Notes under the pieces: model-generated
Databases searched by the model: none
What the model was told of the DNA's origin: nothing
The model's input: the letters and a program-made list of their open reading frames with translations, nothing else
Part shown: in pieces, positions 33,748 through 61,881 of the stretch
Numbering within the stretch: position 1 is the first letter of the stretch
Layout of the letters: each line of letters starts with the position of its first letter
Program-made: the position numbers and the translations under genes
NCBI RefSeq assembly: GCF_009834915.1
Contig: NZ_WVHS01000001.1
Span: forward strand, 248,001 to 312,000
Direction: 5' to 3'
Length of the DNA stretch: 64,000 bases
Source: Hufsiella ginkgonis
GTDB lineage: Bacteria > Bacteroidota > Bacteroidia > Sphingobacteriales > Sphingobacteriaceae

Positions 33748-35730
33748 ATGGTCGAAAATGAATACACTATGAGTAAATCTTGGCAGTCTTGCCGGGTAAG
33801 GAAAAATGCAAACGATGCACTTGAATATTTCCCGGATAATTACGGCAATATTATACCAGATTTCGGTGACGTAGGGTGCCATTATGACGGCAATAGAACG
33901 ATACCTTTATTTCCGGTTGTCATGGTGTTAACGGCGCTAGCGGGCGATAATACATTATTGATCCAGGACGCAATTGACGAACTTTCACTAAGGGATCCAA
34001 ATGCCGACGGAACCAGGGGAGCAATACTTCTTACCCGTGGAACTTATTCGATAGCTGGCGAAATCCAGATAACGGCAAACGGTATAGTTTTGAGAGGCGA
34101 AGGATGCGGAACCAGGCTTGTAGCGACTGGTAGCCCTAAATCCTTGATAGCTATATGCGGATCCGGATCGAGAGAACAATATAGCGGTTCATACAAAAAT
34201 GTTGTTGACGAATTTGTACCGATTGGAAGCTTAGTGGTATGCCTCGACAATACAACGGGTTTAATAGAAGGGGACCAGGTATTACTAACCGTACAGGCGA
34301 CAGACTCATGGTTGACGGCGATCGGAATGAACCAAATTCCTGCACGAATGGGCACTAAACAATGGACACCGGAAAATTACCGCCTGGATTTTGAAAGAAG
34401 CGTGGTAGCAATTCGAGGCAATGCCGTTGAACTTAACTACCCGATCGTTATGGAAATAGATCAGCGATTTGGCGGTGTAACGTTGGTAAAATGTACTTTT
34501 AACAACAGGGTGAACTTTTCGGGCATTGAGTCGCTGCAACTCGAAGCGGTTACTGAACCACTACTTGCTAACATATCCCCTTGCGTCGCCATCAGCATAG
34601 ACAAAGCGGAGTATTGTTGGATTACCAGTATTACGGCGCTAAATTTTTCCGGTAGTGCGGTAAAAGCCGATCACCTGGCCAAAAACATCACGGTTAGGGA
34701 TGCCGTCTGCATCAATGCTGAAACGACAAGCGATACGGGCCGGCGCTATTCGTTCCAGAATAACGGGCAATTAAACCTTTTTATGAATCTTGTTGCTCTC
34801 CGCGGTCGGCATGACTATGTAACAGGAGCAAAGACCCTCGGTCCCAATGTATTTTTTAACTGTACATCGATACTCGCAAACAGTGATATCGGCCCTCATG
34901 AAAGATGGTCAGCCGGCACTTTATATGACAACGTGACAACAGATTATAAGATTAATGTGCAAAACCGAGGTAATTGGGGAACCGGGCAGGGCTGGACGGG
35001 TGTTACCCAAGTCCTTTGGAATTGTAAAGGACTGAGTGCGAGCGTTGAGTCACCGCCTGTCTCCGGGAAAAATTATGCGATAGGTTTCTTCGGCCAACGG
35101 TCATTCGGTCGTAATTTTCAGGAAAAATTAATTGGTGATTACAATGCGCTGCCGCATGGCGAATGGGAGGGACTTAATGTGCCGGGGTTAGATCCGTGGT
35201 CATTATACCTGGCTCAATCAGTTCCAGGAGGTAACCAACCAGCACCTCCCGGTAAGAAAAACGCTTATGCCGTGGTTTCGCGTATTATGATCAATTTGGC
35301 GACCACAGCGGCATCGGATATGGACTTGATCAACACGATCGCAGTGTACCTGGTGGCAATTGCATGCAAAGCTTATATTGAGGGCGGTCAGGTATTCGGG
35401 CCGGGGAATAGCTTGCTTAACGCTTATTTAGCGGGCGGTCACCCAGCGGACGCCCCTATGGATGATTATGGTATGGGTGAAATCATTACGGAAGTATGGC
35501 ACGAAAGTTATACTAACCATCATGCCGGCTGGAAAGCCTGGCAACAATTATGCTCACAAGAAATAAATGACAGCGATAATGGCGGTCTCACCCTTATCAG
35601 GTTAATTGGGGTGATCTTCGATTCACTGGAAATTTCGGCCCAAAACGCGCAGATAATAAATTCCGGCATTTACACGGATCTTTTAGCCAGGGTAATGAAT
35701 GACGGGGTTATTGATCAGGGGCAATCCTGA
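33748..35730 (+). CDS. Right-handed beta-helix (pectate-lyase-like) protein
   Basis: The protein has 660 residues without a clear signal peptide. Residues 90-400 carry the repeating short beta-strand pattern of pectin-lyase-fold proteins: RGTYSIAGEIQITANGIVLRGEG, then INYPIVMEID-like coils, GVTLVKCTFNN and AKNITVRDAV. A region near residues 335-420 ends in GPHERWSAGTLYDNV, a segment found in several beta-helix carbohydrate-active proteins. The C-terminal 150 residues are of another kind and mostly helical. Substrate is unknown. The start could also be ATG 33769. The 3' end overlaps the convergent glycosyltransferase by 23 bases. Confidence 0.65.
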   Translation: MVENEYTMSKSWQSCRVRKNANDALEYFPDNYGNIIPDFGDVGCHYDGNRTIPLFPVVMVLTALAGDNTLLIQDAIDELSLRDPNADGTRGAILLTRGTYSIAGEIQITANGIVLRGEGCGTRLVATGSPKSLIAICGSGSREQYSGSYKNVVDEFVPIGSLVVCLDNTTGLIEGDQVLLTVQATDSWLTAIGMNQIPARMGTKQWTPENYRLDFERSVVAIRGNAVELNYPIVMEIDQRFGGVTLVKCTFNNRVNFSGIESLQLEAVTEPLLANISPCVAISIDKAEYCWITSITALNFSGSAVKADHLAKNITVRDAVCINAETTSDTGRRYSFQNNGQLNLFMNLVALRGRHDYVTGAKTLGPNVFFNCTSILANSDIGPHERWSAGTLYDNVTTDYKINVQNRGNWGTGQGWTGVTQVLWNCKGLSASVESPPVSGKNYAIGFFGQRSFGRNFQEKLIGDYNALPHGEWEGLNVPGLDPWSLYLAQSVPGGNQPAPPGKKNAYAVVSRIMINLATTAASDMDLINTIAVYLVAIACKAYIEGGQVFGPGNSLLNAYLAGGHPADAPMDDYGMGEIITEVWHESYTNHHAGWKAWQQLCSQEINDSDNGGLTLIRLIGVIFDSLEISAQNAQIINSGIYTDLLARVMNDGVIDQGQS

Positions 35731-37033
35731 CCAATTTAAACGGGAGATTGCGTGCGTGTACGGCAAGCGACGAGTGCTTGATATCCAATTTATTTTCTTG
35801 AATAAGCCGAAAATCAATTGTCCATCGCCACATTAAAAAATCTCTTAGTTTGCTGCCGATCATGGTGTCGGGGTGTGTGGTCAGAGAGTTAGGTCTCTTA
35901 AACCTGATGTAGAAAAAATCGTCCGCGTTTCCCGATCTAAGGTAAAAATAGGACCTCAGGAGAAATTGACTGTCGTAACCGAATTTCCTGTCGGTCGAAA
36001 ACCCGCCTGTTCTCAAATAAGATTCCCTGGTAATTAATGCAGTTGGATGATAAAGTGAATGAAAATATCTTTTCTCTAATGATTGGGACGCATCGAACGG
36101 GAACCGTATCGCCTCAACACATTTATCAAACTGGTTAATTCTTAACTCATGGCAGCCGATCATATCAAGTTTCCTGGAATGCAGCTCTTCCATTTGTCTG
36201 CTGAACCGACCGTCGAGTGAGATATCATCAGAATCCTGGAAAAACACGAACCTCGCTGTAGCTGTGCTGATGGACTCGTGTCGTGCGGGATAGGGTCCTG
36301 TGTTCAACGGCGTGTTCTTAAAAACATTCAGCGTGCAACAAAGATCCGGCACCGCTTGATTGAAGGGTTTGTAACTGCGGTCGTCAAAACACAAATTGAT
36401 TGAAGCTGGTACGACCTTATTACCCTCAAAAGACGAAAGACAACGTTTCAGCAAATTAAGTGGGCCTTTATGGGGAATCACCACCAGGCTATCGCACAGA
36501 TGCCGTTCGGTATCGGTGCCCGAATCGGCTTTTGTTAAAGGCTTACCGATCTGCAAAACAGAAATCCCGCCTGGCCGGCTTCCATTCACTTTAGCCGTGA
36601 CGACCCTGTAAAGCAAGTTTATGAAACTATTTCCGATACTAAAAGCAAATGATTTTACTCCCGCACTTTCATGGAGAATAAAAGAACCGATCCTGCCATC
36701 CTGTCTGGGGCCGAATAGCGGCGGAGCGAGGTAAGGGATAATGATCGTGAGCGGGCTGCCGGTTTCGCTTTTTAATTCATCTGCCAGAGAGGTGGTTTCA
36801 AAATTATTCGATTGAGAGATGAACGCCAGTTTATACACGCTATGCGCTTTTACAACCTTATGGAGATATTTTCTTACGCCTCTGTAATGCAGCGTGGTCT
36901 CAGTGTGCCGGCAGTTTTCGCCGAGCAGCACGATGGTGTTTAGCGGGGTATCCAAGTCCCGGGCGTTAAAATGGGCGCGGGAGGTGAGGATAACCAACAA
37001 TCGAGGATCGTCTTTCGCCACCTTCATAAACAC
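35708..37033 (-). CDS. GT2 family glycosyltransferase with extra N-terminal domain
   Basis: The protein has 441 residues. The C-terminal part (about 185-400) is a GT-A fold family 2 domain: VVIPHKGPLNLLKRCLSS, the metal-binding FFQDSDD, and the later ITRESYLRTGGFS. The N-terminal 180 residues (VILTSRAHFNARDLD) do not match a family I know. It is the last gene of the minus-strand operon that also encodes the C39 exporter. It overlaps the upstream unknown gene by ten bases. Glycosylation of the exported peptide or of a surface sugar are both possible. Confidence 0.75.
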   Translation of the reverse strand: MFMKVAKDDPRLLVILTSRAHFNARDLDTPLNTIVLLGENCRHTETTLHYRGVRKYLHKVVKAHSVYKLAFISQSNNFETTSLADELKSETGSPLTIIIPYLAPPLFGPRQDGRIGSFILHESAGVKSFAFSIGNSFINLLYRVVTAKVNGSRPGGISVLQIGKPLTKADSGTDTERHLCDSLVVIPHKGPLNLLKRCLSSFEGNKVVPASINLCFDDRSYKPFNQAVPDLCCTLNVFKNTPLNTGPYPARHESISTATARFVFFQDSDDISLDGRFSRQMEELHSRKLDMIGCHELRINQFDKCVEAIRFPFDASQSLEKRYFHSLYHPTALITRESYLRTGGFSTDRKFGYDSQFLLRSYFYLRSGNADDFFYIRFKRPNSLTTHPDTMIGSKLRDFLMWRWTIDFRLIQENKLDIKHSSLAVHARNLPFKLVRIAPDQ

Positions 37034-37872
37034 TGATCCCCGTGATTAACCTGGCAGGCTGCCAGTGCGTTATTTAAAAAGCAGTTCAGCAGCATCTTCG
37101 ATTCTTCGCCGAGCCCAACCTGTTCATTTATTATTTGTACCAGGTGACTGTCATGAGCGGTTTCGGGCGAACCAATCGTTAATGGTTCACAAAGCGCCAG
37201 CCAGGCGCCCATCCATGATGTACTCTTCGCTACTATTATTTCATCACTTAGCATAACCTCCCGGGCTATTTCTACCAGGAGATCCTCTTGTAGTAAATAT
37301 TCATTAAACAAGTCTTCCTCGTGTTTTACAGACGGTTTCGTTAGTTGGTGAACGGCCGCATAATTGTAATTGCGATGGGAGAAGTGCACAATTCTCCTTT
37401 TCCGGATCATCCCAAGATATAGATAAAAAGCAAAGGTGATGATCGATTCGTCATCGATCTCGTTACTGCCCATGGCTTCGATGAGAATTGCTGAAAATTT
37501 TGTCCGCAACGGGTCCCGGTCTTTGGCGATATGGAGCCCGTACCGGACAGTATTAGCAGGAAATGGCATAAAAATGCCAGGCACGGGCAGCACGATCTCA
37601 TCTACCGTGAAGTTATAGCTGATAAAAAAATCTTTGAAAAACAGGTCGGCGTTTTTAGCAATTGTCCTGGCTTGCTGATTATCACACCATAGCACCAGGA
37701 GAATATGTTCGCCGCGAATATCGCTGAGCCGTATTTCCAGGTCGTGCACCTGTGACATATGACGTTCCAGGAAAACCTCCACCCCTTTTTTCAGTAAATG
37801 GTGGAAGTGCCGCTTAACACAAAACAGGGAAACAGATACCCCTACTATATCTGTCGTCATACCAGCCCGCAT
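37024..37872 (-). CDS. Unknown protein in exporter/glycosyltransferase operon
   Basis: The protein has 282 residues with no signal peptide or membrane segment. The first 100 residues (VSLFCVKRHFHHLLKKGVEV, then LLVLWCDNQQ) and the VRYGLHIAK stretch faintly resemble the thiopeptide-type/SpaB C-terminal domain that performs glutamyl elimination in lanthipeptide dehydratases. This is only a weak, remembered pattern. The gene overlaps both neighbours (10 and 16 bases), so it is a firm part of the operon. I assign no function. Confidence 0.55.
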   Translation of the reverse strand: MRAGMTTDIVGVSVSLFCVKRHFHHLLKKGVEVFLERHMSQVHDLEIRLSDIRGEHILLVLWCDNQQARTIAKNADLFFKDFFISYNFTVDEIVLPVPGIFMPFPANTVRYGLHIAKDRDPLRTKFSAILIEAMGSNEIDDESIITFAFYLYLGMIRKRRIVHFSHRNYNYAAVHQLTKPSVKHEEDLFNEYLLQEDLLVEIAREVMLSDEIIVAKSTSWMGAWLALCEPLTIGSPETAHDSHLVQIINEQVGLGEESKMLLNCFLNNALAACQVNHGDQCL

Positions 37873-38966
37873 ACATTAAGTTGTTCCCATTGGCCAAATC
37901 CATGCGGATTGACTACAATGATCCTTTCACGCAGGTTCCTCTCCATAATACATCTGTTTGGATAGAAATAAATAAATTCGGCCATCCCCGCCTCTGCTTG
38001 CGGATCAGCCATCCTGTAAAAAACATGCCCTGAGCCTGCGGCGTTCAACCTGCGGCCATGGTCTGAAATACTTAATGAAAGACTTCCGCCAAAGTCATCC
38101 AACAAGAAAAAGTCACCACCGGTATTCTGCCAACTCCCCATTAACAACCTGTCGCCGTTCAGTTTATGAGCAAATTTATGCTTGGGTTTTTGATAAGCCT
38201 GCCTATAATCGCCGGAGGCTGCCGTATTACGATCTATCAATATTCCGCGTTCGAACCTGCCGCTTTCATACAGCCTGATGAATTCAGACATGGATGGCGT
38301 AATAAAATGCATGAACCATCCGAAAAGCGCCGATCCATCTTTTAAAGTATAGCGTTCCTCGTCTGTATGGGCAATAAATTCCAGATAGGCGGGATCGTCT
38401 ATGAAAACTCGCTTATTTCCAGCCATCTCTACCCTGTTAACTAAATCCCAATCTTCGAACCCGTAATCCGTCATTGTCTCATCAAATCCCCCTGCCTGCA
38501 TGAAGGTATTCTTTCTGAGGCAAACTTTTCCGTACACATCTTTCGCAGGATGATAATCTGGCCGGGTTTTAAAATAATCTACCGTAGTTAAAATGATGTT
38601 CTTATCTTTAACGAACTCGTCGTTCACATACTTTGCAAAGTTTTCGCCGGTATAGTGATCTGCATTGATATTGCAAACGATCTCGCCTTTGGCGAGCTTA
38701 AAGGCCATGTTTTTGGCATGGCTATGGCTGAACTTTTGAGGTTCCACTGTGTGATAGTAGCTTACTTTTCCGTTCGCGAGGTATGGCTGCATATTTCCGA
38801 TCATCCATTCATGCATACCATCCTGGGAATTATAATTGAGCACAACAAACTCAAGCTCTTCATAACCTGAATTATTATTAATATTTCGCAGCAAAGTTTC
38901 TTTGAGCTGGTTCAAGCGGTTCATGCAAACGATACAGAAGGAGATCCGGTAGTTTATCATTCTCAC
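37857..38966 (-). CDS. GT2 family glycosyltransferase (galactosyltransferase-like)
   Basis: This 369-residue GT-A enzyme begins ISFCIVCMNRLNQLKETL, with the family 2 nucleotide-binding start. NINADHYTGENF contains the DxD-like pair, and FDETMTDYGFEDWDLVNR is the typical acceptor-side ED motif of polypeptide or chondroitin-type galactosyltransferases. No membrane segment is seen. It sits directly between the HlyD adaptor and the unknown protein in the operon. Confidence 0.85.
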   Translation of the reverse strand: MRMINYRISFCIVCMNRLNQLKETLLRNINNNSGYEELEFVVLNYNSQDGMHEWMIGNMQPYLANGKVSYYHTVEPQKFSHSHAKNMAFKLAKGEIVCNINADHYTGENFAKYVNDEFVKDKNIILTTVDYFKTRPDYHPAKDVYGKVCLRKNTFMQAGGFDETMTDYGFEDWDLVNRVEMAGNKRVFIDDPAYLEFIAHTDEERYTLKDGSALFGWFMHFITPSMSEFIRLYESGRFERGILIDRNTAASGDYRQAYQKPKHKFAHKLNGDRLLMGSWQNTGGDFFLLDDFGGSLSLSISDHGRRLNAAGSGHVFYRMADPQAEAGMAEFIYFYPNRCIMERNLRERIIVVNPHGFGQWEQLNVCGLV

Positions 38967-38968
38967 TA

Positions 38969-40249
38969 TTATTCTATAGCCCTGATCACGTTTCTCATCA
39001 ATCTTTTCAACACGCTGGCTTCTTGTGTGATGATCTCAGCATCTGCTATCATGCCGGTTTTCAGGTTTACAGCCTGCCGGAGATGGTTATCTTCAAGGCT
39101 GAATTTCACCCTGGCGGTAAAAATGCTGTCTCTGAAAGGCACTTCGTTGATATAGGAGATATGGCCATGAATAATGCCATATTCTTCATAAGGAAACCCC
39201 TTTAACTTAATCAGAACCTCCTGTCCTTTCCTTACTTTTCCCATACTGAACTGTGGAATCCTCAATATCCCGAAGAATGCCGAATTGCCCGGAGTTATAT
39301 AAAAGAGCGATTGTCCTTCGTTAACCACCTGGTTTTCCTGTACTACCTCCGAAAATTCCAGTCGACCGGCCTGGGTGGCGACAACCATAAACCTGTTCTT
39401 CCATTTTTCGATTTCGCTAACCTCCCTGTTCACTGCCTGGAAAAAAGTCGATTTAACGAGGCTCACCTCCTCCTCGAGCTCCATGATCTCCTTTTCTTTA
39501 GTATATCGATCCACCCGGTTAGCTGATAACGCTGCCCTTGTTTGACGGACGGGGTACTGGGTTGCTAAGAATTTAGCTTCTTCCCGCTTAAACTCCATAC
39601 GGGCTTCTACTTTTTCGTCCAGAAGCTTCTTATGCATCTCAAACTCCTGTACTGCGAGGTCGTATTCTTTTTCCTGCAGCGCCAATTGAGCAACCAGGAA
39701 CTTTTGATGATTGTCTATGCTTTGAATGTCTTTTGCAAGGAAAGCCTTCTTTTTTTGACGAAAGCCTTCGTTAACGGCCGACTTATAATCAAGGAATGAC
39801 TGATAAAACTCCTGGTAGGAGGCTTGTAATTCGCCCAGTTCAAAATTTCCATGATCATCCAGGAAGGTGGTCGATAAGTTTTCCCCGTTTACCAACTGTT
39901 TCTGAAGCGAGGTCAGCTGTGTATAGAGCGTTAATATCTTTTCGGGGTTGCCATCGCTTTCCAGGAAGGCAAGTGGCTGGTTACGCTTTACAGCTGCATT
40001 GTCTGCCACCAACAGCCTTACCAGCTTCCCGGTTACCTTTGCAACAACGGGCTTAGGAGCATCTTCCGCATTTATCTTCAAATCTGATCGTACCACGTCA
40101 GGGTACCTGATCATTGCCGACAAACCTACGAACATAATGATCATCAGGAACAGGATCGTCATGCTCCACTGCACCAGCCACGGTGGTTGAGCTGCAATGA
40201 TCTCCTGCATCTCACTCTGGTATTCTGCCTGTTCTTCCGTTACTTCCAT
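38969..40249 (-). CDS. HlyD family periplasmic adaptor of bacteriocin exporter
   Basis: The protein has 426 residues. A short cytoplasmic head is followed by one membrane helix at about 27-48 (TILFLMIIMFVGLSAMI). A biotinyl-lipoyl-like half-domain follows (KPVVAKVTGKLVRLLV), then a long coiled coil (about 110-275, rich in Lys/Glu/Gln) and the beta-barrel C-terminus (GQEVLIKLKGFPYEEYG). It links the inner-membrane ABC exporter to an outer-membrane channel. The gene is immediately adjacent to the C39 ABC transporter gene (its start codon at 40249 follows directly after the transporter stop at 40250). Confidence 0.93.
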   Translation of the reverse strand: MEVTEEQAEYQSEMQEIIAAQPPWLVQWSMTILFLMIIMFVGLSAMIRYPDVVRSDLKINAEDAPKPVVAKVTGKLVRLLVADNAAVKRNQPLAFLESDGNPEKILTLYTQLTSLQKQLVNGENLSTTFLDDHGNFELGELQASYQEFYQSFLDYKSAVNEGFRQKKKAFLAKDIQSIDNHQKFLVAQLALQEKEYDLAVQEFEMHKKLLDEKVEARMEFKREEAKFLATQYPVRQTRAALSANRVDRYTKEKEIMELEEEVSLVKSTFFQAVNREVSEIEKWKNRFMVVATQAGRLEFSEVVQENQVVNEGQSLFYITPGNSAFFGILRIPQFSMGKVRKGQEVLIKLKGFPYEEYGIIHGHISYINEVPFRDSIFTARVKFSLEDNHLRQAVNLKTGMIADAEIITQEASVLKRLMRNVIRAIE

Positions 40250-42430
40250 TTAAGTTCCCAGTTCAAGTTGGTTTTGCACTAAGCGATAATAGGCGCCTTT
40301 TGTTGCGGTCAGCACATCATGCGAACCCTGTTCAACCACCCTGCCGTTGTCCATAACAATAATATTATCCGCGTTTCTCACGGTACTAAGGCGGTGTGCT
40401 ACTATGATCACAGTCCTCCCGGCAAAAAATTCCTGGAGGTTATTAATGATCATTTTTTCATTATTGGCATCCAGGGAATTGGTGGCCTCATCAAAAAAGA
40501 TGTAATGAGGGTTTTTATAAACCGCCCTGGCGATAAATAAACGCTGTTTTTGCCCTTGGCTAACGCCGTTCCCCCCGGCACCGATCATGGTATTAAACCC
40601 AAGTGGCAGGGCGTCGATAAATGCGTTGATATTTGCCACCTTCGCTGCATTCTCCAACCGCTCCGTCTCCGGATAGTCGTCGCCCAGTCCGATATTGCCT
40701 GCAATGGTATCTGAGAAAATAAACCCTTCCTGCATCACCATGCCGCATTGACTTCGCCATTCTTTAACGCTCAACTGATCTAACCTGACATCACCAATCC
40801 TGATCTCTCCTTTCTCAGCTTTATAAAAACGCAGAAGCAGTTTTAGCAGCGTAGTTTTCCCGCTACCGCTCATCCCTACAATTGCCGTTGTTTTCCCTTC
40901 AGGTATCCGGATACTAATATCGGCTAGTACCGGATCATTTCCAGCTCCGGGATAACGAAAAGTAAGTTGTTCGATCGTGATCGTTTTGTTCTTAGGCAGC
41001 GCATGGGTAAAGGGCTTGTTGTCCGGTTCTTCATTTTCCATTTCATGTACTTCGTTCAACCGCTCAAGACTGATCTTCGCATCCTGGTAGCCTTGTATCA
41101 GGCCAAGCAACTGTTCGATTGGAGCGTTTAGCATAGCGGTCATATATTGAAGAGCCATCATTCCGCCCAATGTGAGGTAGCCTTCCACTACCGCTTTTGC
41201 GCTTAGGTAGGTAATCAGGATGTTTTTGCCCTGGTTAATAAAGCTTGCGCCCGCCTGCTGGTATTGATTAAGTGCAAGCCCCTGTAGTCTAAACTTAAAC
41301 ACATTTGCCTGTATGTTCTCCCACTTCCATCGTTTTTGCTGTTCACAAGTATGTAATTTTATTTCGTTTATACCGGTGATCAGCTCCACCACAGTGCTTT
41401 GGTTATTTGCTGCATTTCCAAATTGCCGTTGATCAAGCTCCCGCCGTCTTTGCATGAATAAGTATATCCAAAAGGAATACATCCCGCTGCTGATCAGAAA
41501 TATCACGAGGATAGCAGAGTTATAATAACTAATGATGACGGCGTAAACTATCATATTGACCAGTGAGAAAAGCGTATTTAATGTCGTTCCTGTTAAAAAG
41601 CTCTCTACGCGCCGATGGTCGTTCATACGTTCCATGATATCCCCCGTTCTCCTCGAATCGAAAAAACTCATCGGAAGCCGCATCATCTTAGCGAGGTAAT
41701 CGGTAAGAATCGCCACATTTATGCGGGTAGACATGTGCAGCAGTATCCAAGACCTGACGAATCCTACGCTCAACGATCCCACGAAAAGCATTACCTGTGC
41801 GATAAGTATCAGGTTGATAAGGCTTAGATTCTGCGTACTGATGCCGATGTCGACAATTGCCTGCGTTAAGAACGGGCCGATCAGTTGTATGACACTGCCA
41901 ACGCAAAGCCCTAAAAAGAGCTGGAGGATCAGCCTGCTGTAGGCTCGCCGGTAGTTAAAAAGGATCGACCAATTTAGACCCTTACTTTTATCGTCATCTT
42001 CTTCGTAAAACCGGGGGGTAGGCGACAGAAACAGCACCACGCCCTCGCGTGAGCGACCGTTGTTCAGCCAGTGATCTCTCAGTTCCCTTTCGGAATATGT
42101 CAGCAGTCCTTTTTCCGGATCCGACACATAATATTTGTCCTTCTTTATCTTATAGAGTACCACGAAATGGCGGCTGTGCCAATGCAAAATGCAGGGCAGC
42201 TGCGACTTTGTCAATTCGTCGGGTTCGATCTTTACACCCAGTGAACGCAGTCCGATCTTTTCCGCAGCTTCGCTGATCCCCAGCAATGAAACACCTACCT
42301 TGCTGATGTTGCAAAGGTCGCGTAACCGCTGTATGGCATACGAGCGCCCATAATGTTTTGCGATGATACGCAGACAGGTAGGACCGCAATCCATCCTGTC
42401 ATGCTGTTTATAAAAAGGGAACGATTTCAA
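40250..42430 (-). CDS. C39-peptidase ABC exporter (PCAT) for double-glycine peptides
   Basis: The protein has 726 residues. The N-terminal C39 domain has the catalytic cysteine C15 in RMDCGPTCLR, a histidine in SRHFVVLYKI and an aspartate in VSDPEKGL, so it looks active and should cut after GG. Six membrane helices follow (about 165-430). The ATPase domain has Walker A GMSGSGKTTL, signature GVSQGQKQRL (SQGQ variant of SGGQ) and Walker B FFDEATNSLD. It exports peptides with double-glycine leaders such as the one at 45396-45620. It is the second gene in the operon. Confidence 0.93.
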   Translation of the reverse strand: MKSFPFYKQHDRMDCGPTCLRIIAKHYGRSYAIQRLRDLCNISKVGVSLLGISEAAEKIGLRSLGVKIEPDELTKSQLPCILHWHSRHFVVLYKIKKDKYYVSDPEKGLLTYSERELRDHWLNNGRSREGVVLFLSPTPRFYEEDDDKSKGLNWSILFNYRRAYSRLILQLFLGLCVGSVIQLIGPFLTQAIVDIGISTQNLSLINLILIAQVMLFVGSLSVGFVRSWILLHMSTRINVAILTDYLAKMMRLPMSFFDSRRTGDIMERMNDHRRVESFLTGTTLNTLFSLVNMIVYAVIISYYNSAILVIFLISSGMYSFWIYLFMQRRRELDQRQFGNAANNQSTVVELITGINEIKLHTCEQQKRWKWENIQANVFKFRLQGLALNQYQQAGASFINQGKNILITYLSAKAVVEGYLTLGGMMALQYMTAMLNAPIEQLLGLIQGYQDAKISLERLNEVHEMENEEPDNKPFTHALPKNKTITIEQLTFRYPGAGNDPVLADISIRIPEGKTTAIVGMSGSGKTTLLKLLLRFYKAEKGEIRIGDVRLDQLSVKEWRSQCGMVMQEGFIFSDTIAGNIGLGDDYPETERLENAAKVANINAFIDALPLGFNTMIGAGGNGVSQGQKQRLFIARAVYKNPHYIFFDEATNSLDANNEKMIINNLQEFFAGRTVIIVAHRLSTVRNADNIIVMDNGRVVEQGSHDVLTATKGAYYRLVQNQLELGT

Positions 42431-42452
42431 TAAAAACTATTTAGTATGCTGA

Positions 42453-44096
42453 TCAATTGTCCGACCATTTTACGGGGTGATATAGTACCCGCTCTCCTAT
42501 TTCCTCGTGTGTGATAACAGGTCTGAATCTTAGTGATCCGGTACGCAGCTCTCCAAATGGATCCGGGGCTGCGGACGTGTAAAACTTGCCTGCACATCCG
42601 GGTAATACGTACTTCCCGGTGCCACCAATATCATGGATCAGGAAGCCGCCGTTATTCAACAGAGTGGGGATAAGTACTTCATGATGTCCGCTCCATCCTT
42701 CCATTAGCATTTTATGAATAAAAGCCAATGCGGCGTTCGATATTCTAAAGATGGGATTAAAGGATCGCATTTTATCCAGGCTTCGTTGTTTTCCGTCGGG
42801 GTGCCTTAGCGTGTTCCACCAATACCAGGCGGGAATATCAACGCGGTCGGTTACATGGGAGGCCAGGAAATCTGTTTCGATACCCTGGGAAGAAAAGAAA
42901 CGAAAGAAATCGCACCACTCTCCATTATAATAAACATCCTCCTCTACGTACCAATAATAATCAAACCCGGGATGGTGCAGATAAAATTTTAATATTGGGA
43001 AATGATTGCTTCCGGGAATAAGCCTATTACAAATTGGAATGTAACCCAGGTCATAAAGGATACTGTCCGTAAATTCCACCGTGCCGGTATTATTTCCCCC
43101 GAACCCGTTTTCTGCATCAGTATGCCGGAGTAAAAAAAACTGCTGATCACGGTCCGCATGCTGTTTCAACGAATCGAATCTGGCAGCGATTAACGCATCC
43201 TTTTTATTGGTTAACATTAATACCGCTGTTCCTCCAGCCCGGGCGGGCAGCGTTTTGTCGTTCACAAGTCTTACCTTATTAACTGTATTGCCAGCTGGCA
43301 GTGCTTTCAGCAACTGGTTATCCACCCGGTCCAGTAGCTCATTATCCGCCAATGATTCAAACGGGCCGGAGAACAAGTAACCAGTACTGTTCAAAGACCG
43401 CAGCGAATTGACATCAACCTCCGCAATATTTTTCAATTCGGTTTTACCGACATGCATCCTGGTATTGATTAATTGGCTGCGGATCTCCTCTGCTCCGCAG
43501 TTCATCAATAGTGTTTGAAAAAAGCTTTCTATCGGAAAATTGACCTGTCGGAAATAGGTTATAAAATCCGGGTTTATTTTTAAAAAGGCAAAGATCATCT
43601 TAACCACTTGCAGCGGGAAAGACATGCATTCGGAACCGATGCGGAGCGTCATTACCCTTTTTGTTTCCTCATAACCCGGAAACCGGTCGACCCCTCCCTC
43701 ATATAGCCGGCCGTCCGGGACATTAAAATGCTCCAGGAACGTTTTACCCGGATTGCGCCTAAAATGGTTTGCAATATCTTCTGCAGGCTTAACCGGGTAG
43801 TCGTGGCCATTGATGACTACGATATGTTCAGCCTCTTTAAATTTATTCTTAACAAACCTGAGCGCATTTAATGTCGCCTCTACTACTCCAAACGACCCGC
43901 GGCCGGCAGTGCACCTGTTCCGTATAAAATGTATATCATTCCATTTTTCTTTAATAAATGCGTTTTTGAATGCTGCCAGAGACGCCCTTTTATCTACATG
44001 AACAACGAATTTCGTCCCGCCGTCGTTAAGCATATTAATGAGACGAACCAAATGGGCAGGATCCCTATCGGCGCGAATCACATAAGTGATGGTCAT
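42453..44096 (-). CDS. Two-domain glycosyltransferase (core-2/I-branching GT14-like plus second domain)
   Basis: From ATG 44096 (MTITYVIRADRDP) the protein has 547 residues. Eleven more from 44129 are possible but unlike the family. Residues 1-260 match the core-2/I-branching beta-1,6-N-acetylglucosaminyltransferase type (FVVHVDKRASL, VINGHDYPVKP, NFPIESFFQTLLMN). Residues 290-540 form a second GT-like domain with YWYVEEDVYYNGEW and SHHEVLIPTLL, a type found in sugar-transferring proteins of unknown specificity. It is the first gene of the exporter operon, divergent from the peptide maturation genes. Confidence 0.75.
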   Translation of the reverse strand: MTITYVIRADRDPAHLVRLINMLNDGGTKFVVHVDKRASLAAFKNAFIKEKWNDIHFIRNRCTAGRGSFGVVEATLNALRFVKNKFKEAEHIVVINGHDYPVKPAEDIANHFRRNPGKTFLEHFNVPDGRLYEGGVDRFPGYEETKRVMTLRIGSECMSFPLQVVKMIFAFLKINPDFITYFRQVNFPIESFFQTLLMNCGAEEIRSQLINTRMHVGKTELKNIAEVDVNSLRSLNSTGYLFSGPFESLADNELLDRVDNQLLKALPAGNTVNKVRLVNDKTLPARAGGTAVLMLTNKKDALIAARFDSLKQHADRDQQFFLLRHTDAENGFGGNNTGTVEFTDSILYDLGYIPICNRLIPGSNHFPILKFYLHHPGFDYYWYVEEDVYYNGEWCDFFRFFSSQGIETDFLASHVTDRVDIPAWYWWNTLRHPDGKQRSLDKMRSFNPIFRISNAALAFIHKMLMEGWSGHHEVLIPTLLNNGGFLIHDIGGTGKYVLPGCAGKFYTSAAPDPFGELRTGSLRFRPVITHEEIGERVLYHPVKWSDN

Positions 44097-44235
44097 TGTC
44101 AAATTTAAAACCAAATAGCTCGCAAACAAAATAAGAATGACGATAAAGAGAATTATTTACTAGTTTTGGTTATAGCGGTATAACAACTGATTTTCCGTAA
44201 ACGATCCACTCTACAGATGTCCCCAGTATAAGCAT

Positions 44236-45273
44236 ATGAAACTACGCATTCTTTTGACCTCAGTTGTTCTTGCCTGGAGTGTTGCGGCGATCGCACAAAC
44301 GCCGAACGCTTATGATTTGAATGTAAAGCTTGCGGAACAATATTATCGAAGCGGGGACTTTCTAAAAGCGGCGCAATCCTATTCTCAAGCTTTTTTTTCG
44401 AATAAAAACCTGGGCCTGATAACTGATCGATATAAAGCCGCATGTTGCTGGGCGATGACAAATGAAGTGGACTCATCCTTTTACCAATTGGAAAAAATTG
44501 TTAAAACGGGATTTTACACTAATTACCATGAGATAGTAACCGAACCGGATTTGATCGTGCTCCATAATGATTCAAGGTGGAAAAATATTATTATGACAAT
44601 AAAAGCCCTAAAAGACAAGGAAAGAGAAAATTTGAATCTGCCAGTGGTCGCCGCATTGGACAGCGTATATGTCGATGACCAGTTTCCCCGGCGTGTATTG
44701 ATGAGTATCGAAAAAAGCGGCGGTCTGAGATCCGCCCGGTGGGAAGCCAAGGCGAAAGAGATTATGCGTCAAGATTCGTTAAATCTGCCACGAATTACGA
44801 AAATCCTGGATCAGTACGGCTGGTTGGGTAAAGAAGAGATCGGTATTGAGGGCAACCGTACGTTATTCCTTGTCATACAACATGCGGATATTAAAACCCA
44901 GGAAAAATACCTGCCTATGTTGCGTGCCGCTGTCATCAGCGGGAAAGCGAGTGCTTCCAGCCTGGCATTATTGGAGGACAGGGTCTCGCTGAGACAGATC
45001 AATAAACAGATCTATGGCAGCCAGATCGGCCAGAATTATTTCACAGGCGCTTATTATGTACTCCCCATGGACGATCCGGAAAATGTAAATAAGCGGCGTG
45101 CAGCCGTTGGATTGGAGCCTTTGGAAGGTTACGTTAAACAGTGGGGGATTGCCTGGAGCATTGAACATTATTACAAAGACCTGGAAATGAATAAAGTTCC
45201 ATCATCGCCGGGAATCCGAAGACTAACTCCAATCAAAGATAAGGTAACAAGGCCGTTTCCCGCGGTAAATTAG
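44236..45273 (+). CDS. Exported DUF6624-family protein in peptide locus
   Basis: The protein has 345 residues with a signal peptide (MKLRILLTSVVLAWSVAAIAQ). Residues 25-130 look like TPR-type helices (EQYYRSGDFLKAAQSYSQAFF). Residues 165-300 carry the DUF6624 pattern QYGWLGKEEIG then NRTLFLVIQHAD and KYLPMLRAAV. Function is unknown. Because it is the first gene on the maturation side and exported, it may be a receptor or immunity-type partner for the peptide, but that is inference. Confidence 0.7.
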   Translation: MKLRILLTSVVLAWSVAAIAQTPNAYDLNVKLAEQYYRSGDFLKAAQSYSQAFFSNKNLGLITDRYKAACCWAMTNEVDSSFYQLEKIVKTGFYTNYHEIVTEPDLIVLHNDSRWKNIIMTIKALKDKERENLNLPVVAALDSVYVDDQFPRRVLMSIEKSGGLRSARWEAKAKEIMRQDSLNLPRITKILDQYGWLGKEEIGIEGNRTLFLVIQHADIKTQEKYLPMLRAAVISGKASASSLALLEDRVSLRQINKQIYGSQIGQNYFTGAYYVLPMDDPENVNKRRAAVGLEPLEGYVKQWGIAWSIEHYYKDLEMNKVPSSPGIRRLTPIKDKVTRPFPAVN

Positions 45274-45362
45274 GAAGATCACTTTCGAAGTGTTGTATTT
45301 TATTTAACCAAAATAATTCTACACAGATTATTGATCTATACTGCAGGGTAATTCTAAAATAG

Positions 45363-45370
45363 TATCTTTA
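45363..45370 (+). promoter_or_regulatory. Possible -7 element of the precursor peptide gene
   Basis: TATCTTTA differs from TAnnTTTG only at the last base and lies 25 bases before the precursor ATG, a spacing like that at gcvP. No clear TTTG box is seen upstream. It would give the peptide gene its own promoter, separate from the DUF6624 gene. Confidence 0.3.
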
Positions 45371-45395
45371 TCACGAACGGTTAACCTAATTAGAT

Positions 45396-45620
45396 ATGAA
45401 AAAACTACAGAAACTTAAATTCGTTGAGCTCGGAAAACAACAGATGACACATGTCATTGGCGGAGGTTATGGTGAAGAAACTTATCGTGATATTCCCACG
45501 GAAACTCCGACCAACATTTTGGAACACACTTTCGTTTATGGCTCCATAAATGGAATCACGGACCGTATTCCAGATACTGAGACCGGTCCTGACCACGTTA
45601 GCGATTTACATTACGCCTAG
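45396..45620 (+). CDS. Double-glycine-leader precursor peptide (grasp-with-spasm type)
   Basis: This 74-residue peptide starts MKKLQKLKFVELGKQQMTHV and has a GGG at residues 22-24, the pattern of Bacteroidota GG-leader natural-product precursors. The predicted core (about 24-74) is rich in Thr, Glu and Asp, with two related elements: YRDIPTETPT (30-39) and DRIPDTETGP (56-65). Such residues could be donor and acceptor in ester or amide macrocycles made by ATP-grasp ligases. A terminator-like hairpin follows and then the maturase genes. The C39 exporter in the divergent operon would cut after the GG. Confidence 0.8.
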   Translation: MKKLQKLKFVELGKQQMTHVIGGGYGEETYRDIPTETPTNILEHTFVYGSINGITDRIPDTETGPDHVSDLHYA

Positions 45621-45644
45621 CTTGCACTGCTAACAACAGGTTCC

Positions 45645-45687
45645 AAATCATTTAGCGTATTCCTGAAGGCCACGCTAAATGATTTTT
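45645..45687 (+). terminator. Attenuator-like terminator between precursor and maturases
   Basis: AAATCATTTAGCGT (45645-45658) and ACGCTAAATGATTT (45672-45685) form a perfect 14-bp stem with a 13-base loop and end in five T residues. It would limit read-through into the ATP-grasp gene, so the peptide would be made in excess over the enzymes. Confidence 0.75.
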
Positions 45688-45707
45688 CTGTTACAAATCC
45701 TTGCACC

Positions 45708-46685
45708 TTGGGCATCTTAATTATTTCCCACAATGAAGATCAATCGACCTGCAATGTTATCGGTTGGATCAGGCATTATAATAAAAGTTATCATAGGATT
45801 AACTGCCAGCCTTCCGTAGAAATCCATTCGATGGAGATTGCCGATCAATGCCGCATGCTTCTACGGGTAGGTGATCAGGAAATTGACATTAATGAGATCG
45901 AGGCGTTTTGGCATAGGAACGGACACATTACTATTGACTTCCCGGCAACGCTTATTTCGGATGATTTCCCCTATAAAAAGGACCTGTTTTCTCATTTCCG
46001 AAATGAAAAGCGAAAAACAAGCGAATATCTGCATCACCAGTTCAGGAAGAAAAAAAGCCTTGGAAACTACTTCCAGGCAGATTTAAATAAGCTTATCGCG
46101 CTGGAGCAGGCCAGGGCGCTTTCGATTCCAGTTCCACCTACCCTGGTCACCACTTCAAAGAAGACGCTGGTGAGCTTCCTGACGAAATATGGTAAGGCCA
46201 TCTGCAAACCGATATCCGACGCATTGATGTTAACCGATATCGACGAAGGTACAGTGGCCTACTATACTAATGTGCTTACAGACGAAAACGTAAATAGTCT
46301 GGGAGACCATTTTCCCCTTTCACTGTTCCAGCAGCGTATTATAAAAAAGTATGAATTGCGAATATTTTACTTGGATGGCGAGTTCTACAGCATGGCAATT
46401 TTTTCGCAATCTGACGAACAAACGATGGTAGACTTTCGAAAGTACAATCACCGAAAACCAAACAGGACCGTTCCTTATTCATTGCCCCCCGATATACAGG
46501 ATAAATTGAGGCAGTTGATGAAACAATTGGACCTTAATATCGGGTCTATCGACATGGCTGTCACTCCGGAAAATGAATATGTATTTTTTGAGGTTAACCC
46601 GGTGGGACAATTCGGAATGACCTCTTTCCCCTGTAACTATTACCTTGAAAAGAAAATCGCTCAATATTTAGCGCAAACCATATGA
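45708..46685 (+). CDS. gwsG: Grasp-with-spasm ATP-grasp peptide maturase
   Basis: The protein has 325 residues from a TTG start. No ATG occurs before residue 42 and the frame begins with the family-like ILIISHNED, so TTG is accepted. FWHRNGHITID lies near residue 63. The ATP-grasp core shows KAICKPISDALM, SLFQQRIIKKYELRIFYL and the metal-binding end YVFFEVNPVGQFG. Such enzymes join Asp/Glu side chains to Thr, Ser or Lys in peptides. The stop overlaps the next gene by four bases (ATGA). Confidence 0.85.
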   Translation: MGILIISHNEDQSTCNVIGWIRHYNKSYHRINCQPSVEIHSMEIADQCRMLLRVGDQEIDINEIEAFWHRNGHITIDFPATLISDDFPYKKDLFSHFRNEKRKTSEYLHHQFRKKKSLGNYFQADLNKLIALEQARALSIPVPPTLVTTSKKTLVSFLTKYGKAICKPISDALMLTDIDEGTVAYYTNVLTDENVNSLGDHFPLSLFQQRIIKKYELRIFYLDGEFYSMAIFSQSDEQTMVDFRKYNHRKPNRTVPYSLPPDIQDKLRQLMKQLDLNIGSIDMAVTPENEYVFFEVNPVGQFGMTSFPCNYYLEKKIAQYLAQTI

Positions 46686-46897
46686 CGAAAATTAAGGAGC
46701 TTGATAAAATAAAACAGTATATCGAGACTGAATTGCTGCCCGATCTGCCCGCCGGATTTCAAAACCTTGAATACCTGCCATTCACACCCGAAACGGTTAT
46801 CAGCAGAAAGGCAGTGCCTGTAGATAGTTATATCACCACGAAATATTTTATCAACAGGTATCATAAACCGATCTCCAAATGCTTAACCGATCTGTAG
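46682..46897 (+). CDS. Small conserved-position protein in grasp-with-spasm operon
   Basis: A 71-residue protein, mildly charged and without signal peptide or membrane segment. It overlaps the ATP-grasp gene by four bases and the SPASM gene by 19 bases, which supports real translation. Content such as KQYIETELLPDLPAGFQNLEY and a C-terminal KCLTDL gives no family match. It could be a peptide-binding helper for the maturases. Confidence 0.6.
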   Translation: MTKIKELDKIKQYIETELLPDLPAGFQNLEYLPFTPETVISRKAVPVDSYITTKYFINRYHKPISKCLTDL

Positions 46898-47916
46898 ATC
46901 GCAATCATTTTAGATTGTTTGCAAACTGCGTTCCTGTGAAGGGCGCTTCGCGATCGCTGATTTGCGATATACAACGAGCAGTATATCATTTTATTCCAAA
47001 CGATCTTTTTGATATCCTGACGACACAGGCAAACATGTCAGTAGACAGCCTGCTCGCCTTTTATGAGGATGAGAATAACAGTGACACGATCAAAGAATAC
47101 TTCGATTTTCTTTATACGGAGGAGTATATATTTTTTTGCACCGCTGATGAGCTTGCGCTTTTCCCTGAGCTCAACCTCGATTGGGACCATCCTTCTGCGA
47201 TTACCAATGCCATCATCGATATAAACCAAAGCTCTGAACACGATTTTCCCCAACTGTTCAACCAACTGGAGGAATTGGGCTGCAGGGCGTTGCAACTACG
47301 TTTTTTCTCCGACATATCCCTGCAGAATTTATCTGAAATAATACGCCTGCTAGATCGTAGCGTAATAACGGCCATTGAAATTCTACTGCCCGACCCCGGA
47401 AATCTGCGGGATGAAGAAGTAATTTCCCTAATTACGCTAAACCTGAGAATTTCGGTTATCTGTTTCCATTCGTCAGCGTTGACCCGGGAATTAAGAACAT
47501 TTTCTGATCTGCCTACCACCATTAGCTTTTCTACTAACGCCATCACAGATGAATCACATTGCGGGGTTATATCAAGCAAGTACTTTGCGTTGGGTATCGA
47601 GTTATTCACCGAAGGTCAAAAATACAATACCTGCCTGAACAGGAAGCTTTCCGTAGACAAATCCGGTTTTATCAAAAATTGCCCCTCTATGAAGGCAACA
47701 TTCGGCAATGTTAAGACTACCCAACTGAAAACCGCCATTGCTGCTGCCGGATTTAAAGATCCCTGGGGTATTTCTAAAGACCAGATATATATCTGTAGGG
47801 ACTGTGAATTCAGATATATTTGTACCGATTGCAGGGCCTATACGGTTAATAACGGCATATACAATAAACCTCTTAAATGTAAATATGACCCGTACTCCAT
47901 CGCTTGGAGTGAGTAA
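46879..47916 (+). CDS. gwsS: Grasp-with-spasm SPASM-domain protein
   Basis: The protein has 345 residues. The C-terminal SPASM domain is clear: C252-x10-G-x4-C268, then C306-x2-C309-x5-C315-x2-C318 and C334, enough for two auxiliary iron-sulfur clusters. The N-terminal ~240 residues lack a CxxxCxxC motif, so no radical-SAM cluster can be bound in the usual way; their fold may still be barrel-like. Family knowledge pairs such proteins with the ATP-grasp maturase to modify GG-leader peptides. The reaction of the SPASM partner is unknown. Confidence 0.82.
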   Translation: MLNRSVDRNHFRLFANCVPVKGASRSLICDIQRAVYHFIPNDLFDILTTQANMSVDSLLAFYEDENNSDTIKEYFDFLYTEEYIFFCTADELALFPELNLDWDHPSAITNAIIDINQSSEHDFPQLFNQLEELGCRALQLRFFSDISLQNLSEIIRLLDRSVITAIEILLPDPGNLRDEEVISLITLNLRISVICFHSSALTRELRTFSDLPTTISFSTNAITDESHCGVISSKYFALGIELFTEGQKYNTCLNRKLSVDKSGFIKNCPSMKATFGNVKTTQLKTAIAAAGFKDPWGISKDQIYICRDCEFRYICTDCRAYTVNNGIYNKPLKCKYDPYSIAWSE

Positions 47917-47956: not shown

Positions 47957-48190
47957 GTGATTTGGCAGGGACACTCGCCCTCGATCGAGGTGATCGCCAG
48001 GCTGGCAAAAGCCTTTGAGGTATCGGTGGATTATTTACTGGGCGAAGGGCTGAACGCCTCCTATGATAAAGAGATGATCAAGCGGCTGGACGAGCTGGAA
48101 AGCCTGCCCGAAGAGGAAAAGAGGCGCATATTCGAGTATATAGACCTCATTATACGGGATTATAAGACAAAGAAGAACTACGGTAAATAA
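47957..48190 (+). pseudogene. Truncated XRE regulator, left remnant of the repeat unit
   Basis: Codons from SPSIEVIARLAKAFEVSVDY to the end correspond to residues 42-112 of the intact XRE gene at 54945, with changes such as LESLPEEEKRR for LETLPDDEKKR. The N-terminal helix-turn-helix helices are missing, replaced by unrelated sequence near 47960. It marks the left edge of the Rhs array as an older, partly diverged copy. It is unlikely to be functional. Confidence 0.8.
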
Positions 48191-48218
48191 CAAAGGCCGG
48201 CGGATCCGCCGGCCTTTG
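48191..48218. terminator. Perfect palindromic terminator
   Basis: CAAAGGCCGGCGG and its complement around ATCC form a strong symmetric stem, with TT and ATTTT on the plus side. It sits between the convergent XRE remnant and the first immunity-like gene and probably serves both. Confidence 0.75.
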
Positions 48219-48722
48219 TTATTTTCTTATATACCAATTTCCTTTATAAGCTTTGAATAAGCCTATATCCCCAGGAGGTGAACTCGATGATTTTCGAAGC
48301 AAGATAGGCAGATCAGACCTGTCAGGGTTGATGTATACATTTCCTTCATTATCGACCTGTATCAAGCATAAATTATACAGCACATACTTTTCGAGTATTT
48401 TTTCTATTTCTGCTCTGCTCAAGTAGTCTTTTCCACAACTTTTAAGAACTAACTTGTTGCTGATTTCAACAATTGCTTTACTGTCATCATTAAGCTCGAC
48501 AACATAAGGAGAACACTTTCCCCTATAAATATTTACAAAGTATATCGAAGTGTTATCCTGATTGCCAAGACTTCTGCGGTATACTGAAGCATTCTTTAAC
48601 CCGCTAAAGTCTGTATGGTCATATTTTGCGATGACACTGTCCAGGTCATTGCTTTGACTATGACAAGACTGAAGCATAATCATGAAAATCCCTGTTAGCC
48701 ATATTTTTATTGCTTTTTTCAT
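48219..48722 (-). CDS. Lipoprotein, candidate immunity protein for Rhs tip 1
   Basis: The protein has 167 residues with a lipoprotein signal peptide ([10 protein letters not shown], cysteine 20). The mature part is acidic and polar with no recognised domain. The gene overlaps the end of the Rhs tip by four bases (ATGA), the usual position of an immunity gene. Function as immunity is inferred from position only. An exported lipoprotein would match a toxin acting outside the cytoplasm. Confidence 0.6.
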
Positions 48723-49588
48723 CTTCTCTTAGTTGTAACTGGTGATAGTCCACCCGTTGGAGTCCATGTTCGCGATCCTAGCTGCTGTGTTCGAGAGAAA
48801 TTGATCCCTCGACTTATTGACAATTGATCGTCTTTTGAATCGAGTTGAGAAGGGTAGCCATTAGAAACAGAGTTCTTTAAACTGTTATAGTGAGCTCCTA
48901 ACTTTAGCGTCGTCTCACCAAACCCCAAGGAATGTCCCGCTGCACCCCATAGATAATTCCCAAAGTTCATCTGATTATGTACGTAGCCATCTCCTTGAGG
49001 AATAAAGAGCGTCGAAGCAGGGGTATTTAACGGGTCATTGCTCGCTCCAGCTTCTCCAAACTCGGTTGGAAGTGTGGTATATGAGAAATCCAAAGCTCCA
49101 CCTCCTTTGCTTTCTTTACTTAGATATCCCCAACTATCTCTGTTTTCGGGATCTAGAGCTCCGGCATTCCCCAGCATATCTGTCATCTTCTTAGAACTTA
49201 CAAACGTTACCCGTTTAATGGTGCCGTTTTCAATGTCTCTTGTGTCTGACTCCGGATCCGCAAACTTATATGATTGCCTGGAGCCTGTTTTTGAATTTTC
49301 AACTACCAGCTTATCGGGCTTGTTATTTCTCTCAACGCGATTGTAATTTCCTTCTTCATCAAAAATATAATCATCCCTGGCCCCTGTTGGGTCGGTGCGG
49401 GTAATAGGATTGTTCTGAACATAGTTGTAGGGAGACAGCCAGTCTCTTTGATTTGCAAGCGGATCTACACTCGTAAAACGTCCAATCACAGGGTCATAGA
49501 ACCGCGCCCCGTAATCGTACTGCCCGTCCAGTTCCTCCTGTAACTCCTTCCCGTTATACAGGTACTTATTCCCTCCCGAACCGGTTTT
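48719..49588 (-). pseudogene. Orphan Rhs 3' end with Ntox44-like toxin tip (tip 1)
   Basis: The open frame shows the Rhs core end ([20 protein letters not shown], then [20 protein letters not shown], then [10 protein letters not shown]) followed by a 220-residue tip. The tip segment [20 protein letters not shown] resembles polymorphic toxin type 44 domains, from memory. Upstream of about 49588 the Rhs gene is replaced by the mobile cassette, so most of the Rhs shell is missing and no proper start is seen. It would need recombination with an intact rhs gene to be expressed. An immunity-like gene follows. Confidence 0.65.
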
Positions 49589-50544: not shown

Positions 50545-51411
50545 TCACTTCATCGGGTGCCGTGCCTGGATGATGCTGTGCAAAGCTTGCACCTGGTCCT
50601 GCCGGTACTTTTCAGTCGCGCTGATCTTTCGGTGACCGGCAAACACCTGTACCGCCCGCAGTTCCTTTTCTGCTTTAAGAAGGTTTGTGATCACGCTGGC
50701 CCGGATCGTCCGGCAGCTCACTTTGCGGGGATGGAACAGGCTGCCGTAATGGCTCGTTACATGTTTGATTATGTCGGCGGCGAGCAGGTGGCCACCCCGC
50801 AATCCGACCAGGAAGCGATCACTTTGCCTGCCATCAAGAAGCTGTTTCCGGATCACCTGCAGGTAGTTCAGCATCAGCAGTACTTGGGCGGCCCTCAGCG
50901 ACAGCGTTCGCCCGTTAGTATTCGCCTGCGCCCGGACCCGGACCGTTCCCGCTTCCAGATCGATATCTTCTGTACGAAGATCTTCCAGTTCGCGGGGCTG
51001 CAAAGCCTGGTGAATGAGCAGGCCCATAAGTACTTTATTTCGTGTGGCCAACAGGGTATACCGTTCTTCTTTGTGAAGTAATTGCCCGAGCTCGTCCGGG
51101 GTTAACAGGTCCTGCAGCTGGATATCTGTGCTGATGGGATCGCGCAAACGTACAGATACCGCCGGGTTGTCCGTGCGTTTTCCGGCCAGGGTCAGGTACT
51201 GGTAATACGCTTTCAGGCTGCACAGGATCCGGCGAACCGTGCCGGCATTGGGGTAACGTTTGCGAAGCCGGCCGATATAGGTCATCACCTCCTTAAAGCC
51301 GGCCTGGTCTGCACCAGGGCAATTACTTCGGTAGATCTCAATTTCACGGGCGTACAGCCGGGCCGTCGGTGCTGCGTAGCGCTCCGACAGGTAATCATGT
51401 AGTTCATTCAT
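50545..51411 (-). CDS. Tyrosine recombinase 2 (copy 1)
   Basis: The protein has 288 residues with an N-terminal SAM-like core-binding domain (1-95) and a catalytic domain. The first arginine is in LQPRELEDL and the C-terminal HxxxxxxY region is FAGHRKISATEKY. The box II motif is CRTIRAS instead of HxLRH, so one conserved histidine is absent. Activity may be weak or depend on the partner recombinase gene just upstream (frameshifted). Starts three bases from that gene's stop. Confidence 0.85.
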   Translation of the reverse strand: MNELHDYLSERYAAPTARLYAREIEIYRSNCPGADQAGFKEVMTYIGRLRKRYPNAGTVRRILCSLKAYYQYLTLAGKRTDNPAVSVRLRDPISTDIQLQDLLTPDELGQLLHKEERYTLLATRNKVLMGLLIHQALQPRELEDLRTEDIDLEAGTVRVRAQANTNGRTLSLRAAQVLLMLNYLQVIRKQLLDGRQSDRFLVGLRGGHLLAADIIKHVTSHYGSLFHPRKVSCRTIRASVITNLLKAEKELRAVQVFAGHRKISATEKYRQDQVQALHSIIQARHPMK

Positions 51412-51413
51412 CG

Positions 51414-54835: not shown

Positions 54836-54867
54836 CAAATGTAGCGGATGTTTTTCATTGTTGCAAA
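54836..54867 (-). promoter_or_regulatory. Canonical promoter of SymE-like gene (copy 1)
   Basis: On the minus strand TTTG (54867-54864) is followed by 20 bases and TACATTTG (54843-54836), an ideal Bacteroidota promoter. It excludes the longer SymE start at 54838 and implies a 5' leader of roughly 25 bases. Confidence 0.8.
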
Positions 54868-61849: not shown

Positions 61850-61881
61850 CAAATGTAGCGGATGTTTTTCATTGTTGCAAA
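61850..61881 (-). promoter_or_regulatory. Canonical promoter of SymE-like gene (copy 2)
   Basis: TTTG, 20 bases, TACATTTG on the minus strand, as in copy 1. Confidence 0.8.

Follow-up and report, generated by a model that had tools for sequence, protein, structure and literature searches.

Genes of the two divergent operons

The window analysed here, a stretch of 64,000 nucleotides of the Hufsiella ginkgonis genome, contains a group of grasp-with-spasm (gws) genes on the forward strand, which, according to profile searches, is divergent from an export/glycosyltransferase (GT) operon on the reverse strand. Profile matches located every gene that the first-pass annotation had named at this locus, and two further genes were added to its list: a 71 aa ORF in the gap between gwsG and gwsS, and a DUF6624/TPR gene upstream. 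On the forward strand, the DUF6624/TPR gene (44236-45273; PF20329, 77.7 bits) encodes a protein with a signal peptide-like N-terminus, which may belong to the "cluster 23" lipoprotein family with conserved His and Arg described in the graspetide survey (PMC8939145). It is followed by the gene for the 74 aa precursor peptide (45396-45620), the leader of which, MKKLQKLKFVELGKQQMTHVIGG, contains a canonical VIGG site and matches TIGR04149 with 22.8 bits, slightly below the cut-off of 25. The ATP-grasp peptide ligase GwsG (45708-46685, with a TTG start; TIGR04192, 336 bits for a cut-off of 230), the small gap protein (46682-46897), which ends in NRYHKPISK, and the SPASM-only protein GwsS (46879-47916; TIGR04193, 341 bits for a cut-off of 175) complete this group. 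With both models above their cut-offs and a GG-leader precursor upstream of gwsG, the assignment of the locus to the grasp-with-spasm class, already made in the first-pass annotation, is confirmed.

The reverse-strand operon starts with GT1 (42453-44096), which carries a Branch (GT14-type) domain (PF02485, 38.2 bits) and a DUF3405-like C-terminus; its start is probably the ATG at 44096 instead of the TTG at 44129 to which the listed ORF extends. The next two genes encode a C39 peptidase-ABC exporter (40250-42430; Peptidase_C39, 115 bits) and a HlyD-type periplasmic adaptor (38969-40249; HlyD_3, 46.5 bits, and TIGR01843, 83 bits, which is under the cut-off of that model). GT2 (37857-38966) combines a GT2 fold with a GT7C-type GGFDE...FEDWD motif (PF10111, 47.2 bits; PF02709, 26.9 bits), and it adjoins the gene of a 282 aa protein (37024-37872), whose family relatives match PF14028 and which resembles SpaB_C/Lant_dehydr_C domains. 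The operon ends with GT3 (35708-37033), a divergent GT2-type glycosyltransferase with a weak match to PF00535 (22.2 bits for a cut-off of 23.3).

In the whole genome, which is 99.99% complete, a single GwsS, a single C39 exporter and a single TIGR04149-like peptide are found, and all three are at this locus. As these sole copies coincide, the locus is far beyond chance, and the presence of the only C39 exporter together with the only TIGR04149-like peptide ties the two divergent operons to each other. With regard to promoters, a match to a Bacteroidota pattern at 44100-44130 is too near the ATG and weakly above chance, and sigma-70-type matches are no commoner than in shuffled sequence. Elsewhere in the window, two identical 32 bp Bacteroidota promoter-like matches on the reverse strand (54836-54867 and 61850-61881) suggest a repeated element with copies about 7 kb apart. 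Just downstream of the locus, the regions 47957-49489 and 50545-52333 contain a truncated RstR-like regulator, a fragment of an Rhs core and two or three tyrosine-recombinase-like ORFs next to one another; this is a recombination-prone neighbourhood.

Peptide maturation by GwsG and GwsS

GwsG retains the invariant residues K167, D282, E295 and N297 of its alignment, and a PDB search showed that it resembles solved microviridin-type ligases and CdnC (solved relatives 5ig9, 7m4s and 7mgv). Ligases of this family yield products with side-chain ester or amide rings. The core of the H. ginkgonis precursor is devoid of cysteine and comprises about 20% Ser/Thr and about 20% Asp/Glu, so that both graspetide donors (Thr/Ser/Lys) and acceptors (Asp/Glu) are available. 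Cys-free cores are not peculiar to loci with GTs, as 30 of 97 precursor candidates are without cysteine.

The alignment of 38 GwsS sequences reveals that the SPASM cysteines are kept, these being C228, C252, C268, C306, C309, C315, C318 and C334 in the H. ginkgonis protein, and that none of the 38, H. ginkgonis included, exhibits the CX3CX2C motif of radical-SAM enzymes. Judging by its sequence, GwsS is thus not a canonical radical-SAM enzyme. The SPASM domain of GwsS and the graspetide survey, which classes this family as a radical-SAM enzyme (Makarova et al. 2022, PMC8939145), would favour a peptide cross-linked by radical-SAM chemistry, through thioether or C-C bonds, and such chemistry was also implied by the SPASM maturase and the cross-linked peptide named in the first-pass annotation. 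Nevertheless, the motif is missing from all aligned GwsS and the core offers no cysteine, which makes this chemistry extremely improbable; we have rejected it for GwsS because of the missing motif. Since GwsS has no CX3CX2C motif and the core no cysteine, the cross-links are likely ATP-grasp esters or amides, and rings of this kind would be expected in the H. ginkgonis peptide by analogy with the products of the GwsG ligase family. A PDB search with GwsS gave no informative match.

Accessory genes were counted in a comparison set of 112 gws loci, 34 of which come from genomes of the host family and most of the others from public genomes; these counts are lower bounds, because contigs stop early at many loci. 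A small ORF occupies the gap between gwsG and gwsS in 100 of 117 pairs, often with a YKPISK-like C-terminus. Its recurrence at the same position, together with its description in the survey, rules out a frameshifted gwsS. The gap protein is not new, since it is on record as an "LPL family" protein or as unrelated small proteins, for which a PqqD-like helper role has been put forward (Makarova et al. 2022, PMC8939145). The DUF6624 family occurs in 42 of the 112 loci. We also observed gwsG and gwsS, or gwsS, on contigs labelled as Blastocatellia, Gemmatimonadetes, Acidobacteria and Thermoanaerobaculum MAGs (L147, L148, L155, L166, L181), which may reflect spread beyond Bacteroidota or mis-binning.

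Glycosyltransferases and the SpaB_C-like partner of GT2

The 282 aa protein had been listed as an unknown protein in the first-pass annotation. Taken by itself it indeed has no family match in profile searches, but it can now be placed, through its relatives, in the superfamily of the SpaB_C/Lant_dehydr_C domains (LanB elimination, TbtD). Among these relatives, PF14028 (Lant_dehydr_C) is matched with 35.6 bits at L127 (cut-off 24.4), 18.4 bits at L108, 16.4 bits at L248 and 12.6 bits at L111. The relatives also match NF045556, a model of thiopeptide pyridine synthases, with an E value of 4e-4. Profile-profile alignment (hhalign) of the family to LanB C-terminal domains, which spans the first ~80 residues, gave 83-90% probability (P 8e-6 to 2e-6), compared with at most 0.3% for five other families aligned to it as controls. 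The family profile also finds ORFs of ~940-1090 aa, at least one of which (G060:C59) coincides with a PF14028 match. A PDB search with the SpaB_C-like profile was uninformative. The LanB domains compared here exhibit HIRxR and HMxxNR motifs; the second Arg is present in 0 of 19 members of the 282 aa family, and the H. ginkgonis protein lacks both Args. Owing to this loss, the 282 aa protein is, as far as its sequence tells, a degenerate relative of the superfamily, and a role in binding the peptide for GT2 is more likely than one as an eliminase. Glutamate elimination is disfavoured for the same reason. Two LanB-type genes (PF14028) occur elsewhere in the H. ginkgonis genome (G000:C12; L250:9674-12568 and L251:6815-9862), with no recognisable leader peptide near them.

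At C39/HlyD exporters that have no gws genes beside them, GT2 is accompanied by a member of the 282 aa family at L108, L111-L116 and L127-L136; these loci frequently also encode a C39-like/VKOR/thioredoxin protein and small GG-leader peptides rich in Cys. In a held-out test, 360 genomes of the host's order were searched with the 282 aa family profile and eight new loci were fetched, with GT2 not used as a criterion. A GT2 relative was present at all eight, directly adjacent and on the same strand at seven, and a complete or partial C39 exporter was present at seven of the eight. Overall, the pair occurs in 28 loci, all from one taxonomic family; at 24 of these, the two genes share a strand and lie within 1 kb of each other. 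These 28 loci comprise 23 with C39, 22 with HlyD, nine with a VKOR-type protein, three with a LanB gene and two with gws genes, and this mixture indicates that the pair is common to several kinds of GG-leader peptide clusters. In one genome (G094, L137:8902-10794), GT2 and the SpaB_C-like protein are fused in a single 630 aa ORF.

Several further arrangements of this family were observed. One 814 aa ORF (G295, L135:10037-12481) carries a SpaB_C-like domain. GG-leader proteins of 240-270 aa with a Gly/Tyr-rich stretch adjoin the pair and C39 at L242:8272-9081, L246:8669-9439, L248:5938-6693 and L132:10998-11726; these are possibly large exported glycoproteins, not small peptides. At L244, L249 and L139, the pair stands beside LanB genes, with an additional LanM/LanC-like protein at L249, and the products could possibly be glycosylated lanthipeptides.

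At the gws loci themselves, GTs are rare. They were detected at about 4 of the 112 loci and not at about 96%, a figure to which a wider neighbour screen with a limited seed set contributes and which may therefore be an undercount. GTs thus form an accessory module and not a part of the class. The GT2/282 aa pair is present at two of the 112 loci (H. ginkgonis and L053), as are relatives of GT1 (H. ginkgonis and L205); the wider screen added a GT4-like gene at L169 and doubtful cases elsewhere. Whether related loci have GTs at all had been left as a check on the initial proposal, and they do: at L053 the GT2 and SpaB_C-like pair lies within the gws operon, and at L205 the gws operon includes a Branch-type GT adjoining gwsS as well as a GT4. 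The precursor cores of both loci, YTANTLTIPGGTDDGDDGIKND for L053 and NGLDESLSASSTVTSTGYTAGDDWDFHFES for L205, are Cys-free and rich in Ser/Thr and acidic residues. Outside gws loci, full-length relatives of GT1 are found at L105 and L106, next to C39/HlyD, and the single good relative of GT3 among 301 genomes is at L116, with GT2, a 282 aa-family protein and HlyD. In GT2, the acidic residues conserved across its family are intact (D49, D103, E171 and D172); the only PDB match obtained with it is one of 42 residues to chondroitin sulfate synthase 3. As the relatives of these GTs are found at GG-peptide exporters, a polysaccharide island is a disfavoured explanation of the operon.

In a rapid maximum-likelihood analysis of 88 C39 exporters, the H. 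ginkgonis exporter falls within a nine-row group (SH-aLRT 95) whose other members are six exporters from GT clusters and two from gws clusters. The tree also contains a larger mixed group, in which 11 rows are GT and 9 are gws, as well as a distinct gws-only group of 47 rows. The grouping could be biased because the GT loci all come from one family, but many of the gws-only rows are supplied by that family too. The three loci combining gws genes and GTs correspond to three changes on the exporter tree, at least two of which are forced, and the combination therefore probably arose more than once.

Predicted pathway and comparison with known systems

Based on these observations, we interpret the locus as a grasp-with-spasm cluster (graspetide "branch 5") with an accessory module for peptide glycosylation in its export operon, the product being a glycosylated graspetide; we assign this reading a probability of about 0.5. 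In such a pathway, the GG-leader precursor would be made and GwsG would join Thr/Ser to Asp/Glu side chains of the Cys-free core, with GwsS and the small gap protein acting as substrate-handling or accessory subunits of the ligase. Sugar would then be added to the precursor by at least one of the three GTs, and the SpaB_C-like protein may present the precursor to GT2. C39-ABC/HlyD would finally cleave the leader after GG and secrete the product, the use of which is probably inter-bacterial. The neighbourhood alone points to the peptide as the GT target. The earlier suggestion of GTs dedicated to the exported peptide is nevertheless plausible, given that the sole C39 exporter and the sole such peptide share the locus and that clusters for GG-peptide export repeatedly contain these GT families. 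More tentatively, GT2 and the SpaB_C-like protein could constitute a new peptide-modifying enzyme of two components, with a degenerate LanB-type domain presenting the precursor to the glycosyltransferase. This enzyme would be portable across graspetide, lanthipeptide and disulfide-peptide clusters sharing one type of C39 exporter, giving here a glycosylated graspetide.

Part of the evidence counts against a glycosylated graspetide: the GTs and the peptide are encoded on opposite strands, the GT3 match is weak, and most grasp-with-spasm peptides, with GTs at about 4/112 loci, do without them. The rarity of GTs and their orientation, together with the fact that sequence does not predict GT targets, would agree with a plain, non-glycosylated graspetide and GTs acting elsewhere, on a surface glycan or in self-protection. 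We consider this rather unlikely, as the same GTs recur at GG-peptide exporters and not in polysaccharide islands, the partner of GT2 is a member of a peptide-modifying superfamily, and GTs lie inside the gws operons of L053 and L205. Alternatively, the GT/exporter operon could serve a different peptide encoded elsewhere in the genome, the gws peptide borrowing only its export function. This could be supported by the GT cassette of relatives, which accompanies other, Cys-rich GG peptides, and by the two LanB-type genes of the genome, near which there is no C39 exporter. However, the genome contains no further TIGR04149-like peptide, a search for class I lanthipeptide leaders in it gave nothing convincing (best E 0.24), and the operon is without a VKOR-type gene, which leaves this reading with little probability.

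The homology of the 282 aa protein with LanB elimination and thiopeptide TbtD domains, and its constant pairing with GT2, including the fusion, would also be compatible with a two-step dehydratase, in which sugar is added to Ser/Thr and then eliminated to give dehydroamino acids. As HIRxR and HMxxNR are not kept in the family, the second Arg being lost throughout and both Args in H. ginkgonis, we regard such an activity as very unlikely. The glycosylated graspetide remains our preferred reading. The presence at a graspetide locus of a GT kit that relatives use on quite different peptides suggests that this kit is a portable peptide-modification module, undescribed to date.

Grasp-with-spasm is the largest poorly characterised group of graspetides in the survey (Makarova et al. 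2022, PMC8939145), and the string "glycosyl" occurs nowhere in the text of that survey. We found no description of a glycosylated graspetide or of a GT/SpaB_C pair in the open-access literature, which is no proof of absence. Two assumptions regarding this group become testable: that the SPASM protein is a radical-SAM enzyme, given the missing motif, and that the products carry rings only, given that certain of them probably bear sugar. If our reading is true, a GT combined with a LanB-type domain in several RiPP classes would represent a new transferable tool for peptide glycosylation, and glycosylated products would be predicted for many Bacteroidota clusters now annotated as bacteriocin-like.

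With regard to known systems, the locus resembles the "branch 5" grasp-with-spasm loci of Bacteroidota (PMC8939145) in its ATP-grasp ligase, SPASM protein, gap protein, GG-leader precursor, C39 and HlyD, and differs from them in its divergent exporter operon with three GTs and a SpaB_C-like protein. It shares the GT2, SpaB_C-like, C39 and HlyD families, and the closest exporters, with L108, L111-L114, L129-L134 and L242-L249, but in those loci the place of gwsG/gwsS is taken by Cys-rich peptides together with a VKOR/thioredoxin protein, by long GG-leader proteins rich in Gly/Tyr, or by LanB genes. Like glycocins and other glycosylated RiPPs, it places a GT beside an exported GG-leader peptide; in contrast to glycocins, the core is Cys-free and an ATP-grasp ligase is present, and the H. 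ginkgonis GTs match none of the glycocin GT models in NCBIfam. The 282 aa protein is distantly homologous to LanB elimination (SpaB_C) and TbtD/PbtD pyridine-synthase domains, best in its first ~80 residues, but it is without HIRxR and HMxxNR and is free-standing next to a GT, with no glutamylation domain. Among the ten locus proteins there is no match to the LanB or LanC families of class I lanthipeptide clusters. The gws core belongs to a known class, and what is new is the GT/SpaB_C-like module on a graspetide.
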